DNA of 64,000 nucleotides from an uncultured Roseobacter sp. (lineage in GTDB: Bacteria; Pseudomonadota; Alphaproteobacteria; Rhodobacterales; Rhodobacteraceae), in contig NZ_CANMNK010000001.1 of the NCBI RefSeq assembly GCF_947499265.1, positions 457,001 through 521,000 of the forward strand. The letters are read 5' to 3'. A program made the position numbers and the translations under genes. The notes under the pieces are model-generated. The model was not told where the DNA came from, made no database searches, and saw only the letters and a list, made by a program, of their open reading frames with translations. Below, piece by piece: positions 16,087 through 51,982 of this stretch (positions are counted from its first letter, which is position 1; each line of letters opens with the position of its first letter).

Positions 16087-16911
16087 CTACCGGCGCGCGC
16101 TCCAGCTCAGCGAGGCGTGGCGGCGGGTGTAGAATTCGCCCATCAGGCCGATCATCACCAGCACCAGCCCAACCCAGAGTGCGTAATGCCAATCGGTGTA
16201 ACGCGGATTGTAGTTGATGAATATAAAGCCACGGGCCTGATCAATTGCATGAAAGAGCGGGTTCCAGTCGAACATGGCCAGCATGAAGCCCGGCAGGCTG
16301 TTGGCCACAAACATCTTGCCGGATGCGATCATGTTGGCGCGTTGGTAGATCGTGCTGAAGATCGACACGAATTGCGGAAACCAGGGTTTCAGCGCCAGCA
16401 GTACCAGTCCTAGCGCGGCCCCTGTGTACCATGCCAGCAGCAACATCCCGAAAGCCGCGACAGGTTCTTCTATGACGATCGGGGTAAAGGCTACGTGATA
16501 GGCAAAGAGCACCAACGACAGAGACAGCACCTGAATGTAAAGCGCGCCCAAAGCCGCCGAGGCAATGGCGATGATAGTGTTCATCGGGGCGTGCTGCATC
16601 ATCGGGCTGGCAGGCCCCTCAGAGCCGACAACAGCACTCAACGTCTTGGTGTGCGTCATGAACAGAAAAATACCCGACATGATATAGAGCAGGAAATCCC
16701 CACGGATGGCGGAACCGCGCAACCCGAGCAGGGAGAACATGACATAGAATGCCATGACAAAGATCACCGTTTGCAGGACGTTTATCCCAATCGCCACAAA
16801 GGCGTTGCCGTGGCCTTTGCGCACGGAACGAACAATGGAGTGATAAATCAGCTCAAACAGTGTGAGAGCGGATGAAATACTATTGTTGTTTCGTCGTTCT
16901 GCTTGAAACAT
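16087..16911 (-). CDS. ABC-2 type polysaccharide export permease (KpsM-like)
   Basis: A 274-residue inner-membrane protein with about six membrane segments, of the family that exports capsule, O-antigen or exopolysaccharide. The start MFQAERRNNN (ATG 16911) matches the family's usual beginning better than the earlier ATG at 16947. Family-like stretches are LYIMSGIFLF, AMFDWNPLFHAIDQARG and GLMGEFYTRRHASLSWSARR. No ATP-binding partner is adjacent in this window. It is divergent from cysQ and lies in a surface-polysaccharide region. Confidence 0.85.
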   Translation of the reverse strand: MFQAERRNNNSISSALTLFELIYHSIVRSVRKGHGNAFVAIGINVLQTVIFVMAFYVMFSLLGLRGSAIRGDFLLYIMSGIFLFMTHTKTLSAVVGSEGPASPMMQHAPMNTIIAIASAALGALYIQVLSLSLVLFAYHVAFTPIVIEEPVAAFGMLLLAWYTGAALGLVLLALKPWFPQFVSIFSTIYQRANMIASGKMFVANSLPGFMLAMFDWNPLFHAIDQARGFIFINYNPRYTDWHYALWVGLVLVMIGLMGEFYTRRHASLSWSARR

Positions 16912-50307: not shown

Positions 50308-50730
50308 TCAGGTGTCAGGATCGACCCGGCCGCGCAGTGCCTTGACGTCGCCGCGGACCTTCTTGGCTTTGAGGCGGCGCTTTTTGGATCCCAAGGTTGG
50401 TTTGGTGGCGATGCGGCGTTTGGGCGGAACAAGCGCCTTGCGGATCAACTCGGCCAGCCGATCGCGAGCAATCACCCGGTTGCGGGCCTGGCTGCGGGTT
50501 TCGTCGCATTGGATGACCAAAGCCCCCTCAGACGTCCATCGTCGGCCCGCCAGCCGTTTCAAACGGGTTTTCACCGGACCGGGCAGGGAAGGAGAACGGG
50601 CTGCTTCGAACCGCAATTCCACGGCGGAGGAGACCTTGTTCACGTTCTGCCCGCCGGGGCCGGAGGCGCGCATGAAGCTTTCGGTCAACTCCCAATCCTG
50701 AAGGCTGATGTCATTGTTGATCTGCAGCAC
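50308..50730 (-). CDS. arfB: Alternative ribosome-rescue factor ArfB (YaeJ)
   Basis: A 140-residue peptidyl-tRNA hydrolase that frees stalled ribosomes lacking a stop codon. The catalytic GGQ is at residues 26-28 (SGPGGQNVNKVSS). The C terminus is long and very basic (LGSKKRRLKAKKVRGDVKAL), as needed to enter the empty mRNA channel. It lies nine bases after the VOC gene, so both may be read from the same leader. Confidence 0.95.
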   Translation of the reverse strand: MLQINNDISLQDWELTESFMRASGPGGQNVNKVSSAVELRFEAARSPSLPGPVKTRLKRLAGRRWTSEGALVIQCDETRSQARNRVIARDRLAELIRKALVPPKRRIATKPTLGSKKRRLKAKKVRGDVKALRGRVDPDT

Positions 50731-50739
50731 GCGCTTTCC

Positions 50740-51102
50740 CTACCCATTTGCCAAGCGACCGGACACGCTGACCGAATTGCCGGACGGATCCTTGGTATTG
50801 GCAAAAACATAGCCGTCTGCGTGATGCAAGCTCCCAAAAACCAGCCCTTTTGCGGCGCTGGCGTCACAAAAGGCAGGCACATCTGCCACGGTGAAGACTA
50901 GTTTGACAGCGGCCTGACCTTGGCGCGCGCCCTTTGCTGCAGGGTGCAACAATAGAATTGTGCCGTTGTCTTTTGGGCGCAACTCCACGATTCTGTCGTC
51001 GGGCAGCGCGTGACACGAGTAGTCGAAATGATCGACGTAGAATGCCGCCATTGCGTCGATTTTCCTGGTGTAGAGGATGAGGCTTCCAAGTGTGGGCGTC
51101 AT
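50740..51102 (-). CDS. VOC family protein (glyoxalase/bleomycin-resistance fold)
   Basis: A 120-residue single-module VOC protein (LGSLILYTRKIDAMAAFYVDHF, then VFANTKDPSGNSVSVSGRL). The family covers metal enzymes and drug-binding proteins, so no specific reaction is assigned. GGAG lies about eight bases before the ATG at 51102. The leader with an 18-codon frame, competing hairpins and a terminator ends 25 bases upstream. arfB follows it. Confidence 0.88.
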   Translation of the reverse strand: MTPTLGSLILYTRKIDAMAAFYVDHFDYSCHALPDDRIVELRPKDNGTILLLHPAAKGARQGQAAVKLVFTVADVPAFCDASAAKGLVFGSLHHADGYVFANTKDPSGNSVSVSGRLANG

Positions 51103-51126: not shown

Positions 51127-51154
51127 AAAAGGGCCACACCCGGAAGTGTGGCCC
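51127..51154 (-). terminator. Intrinsic terminator/attenuator in front of the VOC gene
   Basis: On the minus strand GGGCCACAC, loop TTCCGG, and GTGTGGCCC (51154-51131) form a perfect nine-pair stem that runs into TTTT at 51130-51127. It lies 25 bases before the VOC start and at the end of the leader element. Confidence 0.8.
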
Positions 51155-51161
51155 AATCGAA

Positions 51162-51300
51162 TGGTTTCAGGAGGGGGACCGGTTAGACCGATGTCCACTC
51201 AAGTGGTCTGCCCGTCAAGGGCTGCCTCAGCAGGCGACCTCCAAAGCTGTTCCGACACCTCGCTCCAATACCTTTCTTGACACTGGATCACCTCCTTTAC
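51162..51300 (-). ncRNA. Structured leader or small RNA upstream of the VOC gene
   Basis: After the 18-codon frame the minus strand shows successive hairpins: CTGC/GCAG (51233-51222), GCCC/GGGC (51222-51210), CCACT/AGTGG (51206-51195) and GGAC-CGGT/ACCG-GTCC (51196-51176). AGACC (51209-51205) and GGTCT (51189-51185) form a competing pair. CCTCCT at 51174-51169 matches the Shine-Dalgarno AGGAGG at 51296-51291. A terminator closes the element. A weak promoter candidate is TTGGTG (51350-51345) with GACGAT (51327-51322). It may be an attenuator or a free small RNA. Confidence 0.55.
51227..51283 (-). CDS. Candidate leader peptide of 18 residues
   Basis: GTG at 51283 follows AAGGAGGTGATC, which is nearly the full complement of the 16S rRNA end, at the ideal distance of seven bases. 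The product would be VSRKVLERGVGTALEVAC. The stop TGA is inside the first downstream hairpin. The very strong initiation signal on so short a frame is characteristic of leader peptides. No function is known to me. Confidence 0.55.
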   Translation of the reverse strand: MSRKVLERGVGTALEVAC

Positions 51301-51361
51301 CTATCTGTTGACGTTGAAAGAATCGTCGCACAGGTTTCGGAAATCACCAAGTTTTTTTTCG

Positions 51362-51982
51362 TTAATGCGCGGGGCTCAGCCGGGCAGTGATCACACGGAA
51401 GGGGATGAGCGCCAAGAGCGCAAGGCTCAGTTTCACGCCCCAGTCGGCAACCGCCAGTGACACCCAAAGCGGTGCGGCAGGACCAAAGCCCAAGATAGGG
51501 AGCACTTCGCCCGCCCAGCTGACATCGTTGGCCGGCTCAAGAAACACTAGGCTGGCGGAAAAGGCGATGGTGAAAAACAGGGCGGTGTCAATCGTGCTGC
51601 CGATCAGGGTGGAGGCCAGCGGCGCGCGCCACCAGCGCCCTTCGCGCAGTGCGGAAAAGATTGCGACATCCAGCAATTGTGCGGTCAGAAACGCGATGCC
51701 GGAGCCCAAAGCGATGCGCAGCGTCACCAGCGGGCCAAACTCACCCATGATCTGCGTGCCGATCAGCGAGCAAATCAACCCGACAACGAACCCCACCAGC
51801 ACAACGCGGCGGGCGGCGGCGGCACCATAGACGCGGTTCATCACGTCGGTCACCAGGAAGGCAAGCGGATAGGTGAAAGCCCCCCAGGTCAGCCATTGGC
51901 CATAGAGGAATTGCACGAGAATGTTGGAGGCTACAACGATGGCAGCCATGGCAAGAATGCCGGGAAGATGGGCGCGTGTCAT
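51362..51982 (-). CDS. Queuosine precursor transporter (VUT/YhhQ family)
   Basis: A 206-residue membrane protein with about six segments. YPLAFLVTDVMNRVYG is the family motif, and the next segments AQLLDVAIFSAL and STLIGSTIDTALFFTIAF are also typical. Relatives import the 7-deazaguanine precursor used to make queuosine in tRNA. The gene ends 78 bases before the leader peptide frame on the same strand. Confidence 0.9.
   Translation of the reverse strand: MTRAHLPGILAMAAIVVASNILVQFLYGQWLTWGAFTYPLAFLVTDVMNRVYGAAAARRVVLVGFVVGLICSLIGTQIMGEFGPLVTLRIALGSGIAFLTAQLLDVAIFSALREGRWWRAPLASTLIGSTIDTALFFTIAFSASLVFLEPANDVSWAGEVLPILGFGPAAPLWVSLAVADWGVKLSLALLALIPFRVITARLSPAH

Follow-up and report, generated by a model that had tools for sequence, protein, structure and literature searches.

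The window, the 64,000-nucleotide stretch of DNA analysed here, carries on its minus strand a short interval that follows a gene for a queuosine-precursor transporter and precedes genes for a VOC/glyoxalase-fold protein and the ribosome-rescue hydrolase ArfB (Table 1). An earlier note on this DNA had read the interval as an attenuating leader, in which a leader peptide and competing hairpins control the VOC gene and arfB, and had named a free small RNA as the main alternative. That alternative gained support. From its sequence and conservation, the interval looks like a stand-alone gene for a small RNA of about 185 nt, which has its own terminator and for the most part does not serve the VOC gene as a leader.

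Table 1. Features of the minus-strand interval and its flanking genes, in window coordinates
Feature	Position	Strand	Remark
Queuosine-precursor transporter gene (Vut_1)	51362..51982	-	Upstream neighbour; kept across the family
Promoter-like TTGGTG (51350-51345), 17 bases, GACGAT (51327-51322)	51322..51350	-	Read by eye; weak
Extended Shine-Dalgarno AAAGGAGGTGATCCAG	51283..51298	-	Complementary to the 16S 3' tail over its full length
18-codon frame GTG...TGA (VSRKVLERGVGTALEVAC)	51227..51283	-	GTG at 51283, TGA at 51229-51227 within a hairpin; length conserved, peptide not
Start-codon hairpin TCCAGTGTC/GGTATTGGA	51264..51287	-	Paired in 96.8% of cells (45 family copies)
Stop-codon hairpin TGAGG-CAGC-CCTTG	51216..51229	-	Holds the TGA stop codon
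Small hairpin CGGT-CTA-ACCG	51180..51190	-	Kept with compensation in the genus
Anti-Shine-Dalgarno CCCCTCCT	51169..51176	-	CCTCCT at 51174-51169; family consensus CAYCTCC
Intrinsic terminator, nine pairs and TTTT	51127..51154	-	Stem 51154-51131, TTTT 51130-51127; two-sided changes in eight of nine pairs
VOC/glyoxalase-fold gene	50740..51102	-	Pfam PF00903; between the RNA and arfB; sporadic
arfB, ribosome-rescue hydrolase gene	50308..50730	-	NF006718, 188 bits

Identity, distribution and neighbouring genes

No Rfam family passed its gathering cut-off at the interval, and the sole gathering-level match in the window, to Cis2_sRNA (RF02645, 'Ruegeria cis2 sRNA'; 111 bits), lies at 16192-16344 on the plus strand. 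A lenient threshold gave three matches at the interval, two of them with E above 1. The best match was to CC2171 (RF01867), a family that Rfam types as an sRNA gene; it covers 51130-51307 at 32.1 bits (E 1.2e-4) against a gathering cut-off of 75 bits, so that by score the window RNA stays outside CC2171. The alignment runs from position 1 to position 159 of the model, its full length, and takes in both the 5' block and the terminator; the window RNA resembles CC2171 in its 5' GAAAGGAGGUGAUCCAGUGUC-type block, its length, its terminator and its organisation as a stand-alone gene. The earlier note had held that its reading would be weakened if the interval matched an unrelated RNA family already described; this came about by half, the best match being to a free sRNA and below the cut-off.

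Searched over 385 genomes of the class, the CC2171 model matched 96 at E<=0.01, including all five genomes of the family (Rhodobacteraceae) in that sample, and exceeded its cut-off in 13. Among 14 named control genomes it matched Caulobacter vibrioides and Deinobacterium chartae, one of the two over the cut-off. At E<=0.01, a covariance model built from 45 family copies (R1) found a match in 138 of 149 genomes of the family, each from a different genus; 120 of these scored above 70 bits. On 20 chosen class genomes, R1 gave several CC2171 loci 17-29 bits, not clearly above background, and because it does not separate these loci from background we describe the window RNA as CC2171-like. When named genomes were scanned with a DNA pattern, at least 120 records matched, and the matches listed include what we take to be Rhodobacterales, Rhizobiales, Caulobacterales and Acetobacterales. 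No relative turned up among viral contigs. These searches suggest that the window RNA is a divergent relative of CC2171, its Rhodobacteraceae form, and that CC2171-like RNAs occur in several orders of the Alphaproteobacteria. Common descent of the window RNA and CC2171 is likely, short of proof.

The window RNA was not recognised in those portions of other papers that were available, in part of which the name CC2171 was sought. The literature searched yielded no functional study of CC2171; outside it lies the founding paper of the family, reportedly Landt 2008, on Caulobacter. One passage lists CC2171 among the Rfam structures improved with R-scape (PMC11701678), and a passage of another paper names it as a candidate sRNA in M. 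huakuii (PMC5596092).

The transporter gene lies upstream at all 60 pattern-found family loci and at 35 of 40 loci found with the model. On the downstream side the VOC gene is present at 8 of 19 loci of the genus and was found nowhere among the remaining 41 loci of the family, a distribution that argues against the VOC control proposed earlier. The gene arfB follows 53 of the 60 family copies and 32 of the 40 model-found copies; its distance from the terminator is at most 60 nt in 26 family copies and 61-150 nt in 12. Seven family copies have no arfB in view, six with more than 1.3 kb of downstream sequence and one (L092) with only 72 nt. Since the arfB link is a family feature with an often short gap, read-through into arfB stays plausible, and to this extent the proposed arfB control survives within the family. 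It does not extend beyond it. No protein cluster (frames of at least 70 aa) recurs at more than 7 loci outside the family, and the next gene lies on the same strand at 25 and on the opposite strand at 30 Rhizobiales-type loci, the corresponding counts for Bradyrhizobium-type loci being 4 and 10 (both names are our group labels, set by the frame). These strands come from a GC-frame gene caller that is right for 45/53 downstream and 50/58 upstream family neighbours, 8 of the 53 downstream calls being wrong; an earlier strand test was set aside as too noisy, with 10/32 family loci miscalled. With the next gene on either strand, control of arfB cannot be the general function of the RNA.

Ribosome-binding site and reading frame

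The Shine-Dalgarno sequence, described earlier as almost full-length, is longer than stated (16 nt) and kept beyond chance. All 16 bases of AAAGGAGGTGATCCAG are exactly complementary to the 16S 3' end CTGGATCACCTCCTTT of two same-genus genomes (L221 and L222), from which the tail was taken because the 16S 3' end was not found in the source assembly (G000), where rRNA sequence may have been lost or withheld. The 15-base core of the element is found a single time in the 5.2-Mb genome, and the 11-mer AAGGAGGTGAT occurs four times, which is about chance by our own estimate. The AAAGGAGGTG core is kept in all 40 model-found copies, most of them low-scoring; in the 45 family copies the Shine-Dalgarno is invariant partly because it was used to find them. 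The full 16-nt match was considered as the conserved unit and this was revised, the part after GGAGGTG being variable in divergent copies. In the Rhizobiales-type RNAs the segment following GGAGGTG pairs with the frame, with two-sided changes. The same AAGGAGGTGATCCA(A/G)TG start site stands in front of frames of 39-104 codons at four loci (L032, L035, L045, and L156), and the motif alone therefore does not define the RNA. Three genomes of one genus (L038-L040) carry a Shine-Dalgarno and a 26-codon frame with no clear terminator.

The 18-codon frame with its stop in a hairpin, as described in the earlier note, was confirmed, and both frame and stop position are kept beyond chance. The frame has exactly 18 codons in 60/60 pattern-found family copies, which were collected with the Shine-Dalgarno pattern, or with BLAST and retained for having it; the pattern is blind to frame length. 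Eighteen codons were likewise present in copies that lack the pattern (L026 and L027 and, by our reading of the printed DNA, L223 and L224) and in 35 of the 40 model-found copies, mostly low-scoring, with 20 codons in four and 12 in one. The 60 family copies end in TGA (27), TAG (18), or TAA (15) and none in TGG (Fisher 1.4e-6, and 4.1e-4 on 44 thinned rows, in tests that ignore relatedness).

Variation within the frame was measured over 80 18-codon copies, comprising the 45 thinned family copies and 35 model-found copies, the latter chosen for having 18 codons. The two other frames contain stops in 41/80 and 40/80 of these copies. The pN/pS ratio was 0.87 overall, 0.72 for codons 2-7, 0.66 for codons 8-12 and 1.11 for codons 13-18, and peptide identity had a mean of 0.46 and a pairwise minimum of 0.06. 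Synonymous change in the 18 codons had been suggested earlier as a check; the length of the frame is indeed kept, but the peptide drifts. Together with the use of all three stops, these patterns indicate that translation and the place of its termination seem to be kept, not the peptide. To judge by conservation, the frame appears to be translated and its peptide largely free to change, although the lower ratios in codons 2-12 suggest some constraint there, at the level of the peptide or of the RNA.

A gene for a functional micro-peptide could be argued from the strong Shine-Dalgarno, the fixed frame and these lower ratios, but it is very improbable in view of the ratio in the last six codons, the overall ratio and the low pairwise identity. 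The frame length, moreover, differs between groups: it is 14 codons in 9/9 loci titled Bradyrhizobium, where all three stop codons are used, and 21-25 codons in 17/19 loci of five other genera. By the same pN/pS values, which are indirect evidence, the functional encoded peptide that marks a dual-function sRNA does not appear to be present.

Pairing, predicted late closure and termination

Around the stop codon, a stem of five pairs or more can be formed in 35/45 family copies, compared with 18% of shuffles; in at least three of these 35 copies the best stem is a neighbouring one. Of the two stems that the earlier note took to exclude each other, CGGT/ACCG is conserved in the genus; read by eye, it is kept in 19 genus rows, compensatory ATCG/CGAT and GGTCG/CGACC included. 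In contrast, AGACC/GGTCT is intact in only 6/19 rows, in one case by virtue of a G-U pair, and is probably a chance stem.

The match of CCTCCT to the Shine-Dalgarno held up: it can occlude the Shine-Dalgarno, and a CCTCC-type element is kept beyond chance. AGGAGG and CCTCCT form six pairs in the window fold, and the RNA folds at -73.3 kcal/mol (z -2.0; 5/200 shuffles as low). In the 45 family copies the helix between the Shine-Dalgarno and CAYCTCC is 97.8% paired (308/315 cells). The 7 unpaired cells fall largely in L002, L013, and L063, which are aligned one base off; the window copy is one of the exceptions to this pairing in the alignment, its own fold giving the six pairs. Changes in the 3' strand of the helix mostly preserve G-U or U-G pairs, and a CTCC-type element was matched in 34/40 model-found copies. 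CAYCTCC can pair equally well with codons 7-11, the Shine-Dalgarno being the stronger partner in 15/45, and ribosome position could therefore choose between two pairings. In three copies (L111, L084, and L098) whose start region and terminator are intact, about 50-110 nt are inserted downstream of the stop codon and ahead of the 3' closing segment, so this stretch tolerates insertions.

As transcripts were folded at increasing length, the mean unpaired probability of the Shine-Dalgarno was 0.50 up to a point 25 nt short of the terminator; from there on it was 0.01 (45 copies). For the window RNA the successive values were 0.46, 0.21, 0.45 and then 0.00. Shuffled tails gave a mean of 0.32, and a value of at most 0.05 was reached with 43/45 natural tails vs. 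7.8% of shuffles.

These pairings bear on whether the RNA is a non-coding sRNA of the ordinary kind, acting in trans to repress mRNAs by means of its CCTCC anti-Shine-Dalgarno, with the frame incidental. Such a role would agree with the Rfam type of CC2171 and with the CCTCC-loop sRNAs known in Alphaproteobacteria from the portion of PMC3927594 available. We consider it unlikely: frame length and stop are kept while the sequence drifts, the CCTCC is predicted to be paired with the RNA's own Shine-Dalgarno, and in 9/9 loci titled Bradyrhizobium TCACCTC falls within the frame itself.

The nine-pair terminator is real, stands 24 bases before the VOC ATG and is kept beyond chance. A strong terminator-like hairpin lies 3' of the frame in 60/60 family copies (one set by hand), and such hairpins score at least 17 in 102/114 copies outside the family. 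The earlier proposal that ribosomes select between terminator and antiterminator stems was not borne out, one of its stems not being conserved. Upstream sequence pairs with its own terminator arm no better than with swapped arms (rank 0.51, vs. 0.26 for the true 3' arm), and by this comparison the mutually exclusive terminator and antiterminator of an attenuator were not found. A cis attenuator, in which ribosome position on the leader decides read-through into arfB and, where present, the VOC gene, would explain why arfB follows most family and model-found copies and why the gap, at most 150 nt in 38, leaves little room for a promoter of its own. We nonetheless judge it improbable. It lacks an antiterminator, the AGACC/GGTCT stem is not conserved in the genus, six copies have long downstream sequence without arfB (the seventh, L092, being short), and outside the family there is no consistent downstream gene or strand.

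A TTG hexamer with at least 4/6 consensus bases is found 44-63 nt upstream of the Shine-Dalgarno in 38/45 family copies (17% of shuffles). A TTG-type -35 element upstream of the Shine-Dalgarno was detected in 32/73 Rhizobiales-type loci (shuffles 13%) and in only 3/15 Bradyrhizobium-type loci (11%).

A proposed ribosome-gated RNA and its relatives

The reading that we favour, and regard as reasonably likely from sequence comparison and predicted folding, is that of a CC2171-like, independently terminated RNA that is ribosome-gated and self-limiting, its 3' CAYCTCC closing its own Shine-Dalgarno late. Ribosomes would load during synthesis, while the transcript is still short, and the emerging CAYCTCC would then compete with 16S rRNA for the Shine-Dalgarno and shut translation. 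Only an RNA engaged by a ribosome in time would stay open, and the RNA would in this way read out prompt ribosome loading. The closed and the ribosome-held RNA would differ in stability or in the pairing partners available. Because nothing links the pairings of the Shine-Dalgarno and codons 7-11 to the terminator, the likeliest output would be the RNA's own fate or pairing capacity; in Rhodobacteraceae, as a family-specific extra, transcription may in addition run on into arfB through a leaky terminator. A broader version is possible but doubtful: throughout the class, the role of the RNA might be its engagement by ribosomes, with a start site that complements the 16S tail, a fixed-length frame indifferent to its peptide, and an intramolecular mimic of the 16S tail in competition with real 30S subunits. 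It would then sense free initiating ribosomes, its state setting the fate of the RNA and, in Rhodobacteraceae, leakage into arfB.

The start region appears to be paired in each group, but by different partners. In 50 partly hand-picked Rhizobiales-type rows, GAUCCAG pairs with CUGGAUC in the frame (89.4%) and CAUUGUC, in codons 3-5, pairs with a GACAAUG that precedes the terminator (91.4%); two-sided changes occur in both helices. The 3' element thus has codons 3-5 as its partner there and the Shine-Dalgarno in the window RNA. Over all 73 Rhizobiales-type loci, the complementary element is present in 47/49 with CATTGTC; the 24 CATTGTC variants pair with their own 3' element at -8.6 kcal/mol vs. 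-6.9 kcal/mol with those of others (rank 0.33), and a few hardly pair. Late closure of the Shine-Dalgarno is predicted solely for the Rhodobacteraceae form. It was not predicted for the Rhizobiales-type or Bradyrhizobium-type RNAs, in which the Shine-Dalgarno was poorly accessible at all lengths tried; the Rhizobiales-type start codon was more open at full length (0.57).

Of the mechanisms compared, that of the S. meliloti duf1127_1 leader comes closest. According to the part of its description available, when ribosomes arrive late a short upstream frame there pairs with its own ribosome-binding site, and the sequence of the RNA matters, not the peptide (PMC12218461). Unlike the window RNA, that 279-nt leader belongs to a DUF1127 gene, is thought to be Rho-dependent and has no intrinsic terminator (PMC12218461, same part). 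A link to the DUF1127 attenuator was sought with a quick tblastn search near the loci, which gave weak, scattered hits, none of them convincing. The rnTrpL/peTrpL system of S. meliloti, in the portions of its literature available, is a small attenuator-derived RNA with a 14-codon frame, but differs from the window RNA in its leaderless frame, its trp operon and the functional peptide reported for it (PMC10117765; PMC7298713). UpsM of R. sphaeroides, compared by its description in part of one source, is a small RNA in a gene leader of the same bacterial family and, unlike the window RNA, belongs to the dcw cluster (PMC5089854).

Although Rfam types CC2171 as an sRNA gene, a short frame is present in the copies that were read. 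A kind of RNA filed in this way bears marks of selection for translation without clear selection on the product, and is therefore a candidate natural gauge of ribosome availability. It also offers a simple system for testing competition between the 16S tail and an intramolecular mimic of it. Where peptide-like motifs are conserved in such RNAs, they can in truth reflect base-pairing, as with the TWILAS stretch of the Rhizobiales-type frames, whose CTGGATC pairs with GATCCAG. A VEQP stretch (VEQPL, VEQPS) is common to the frames of the distant copies L028, L055, L057, L087, and L155, and is perhaps another base-pairing constraint read as peptide.
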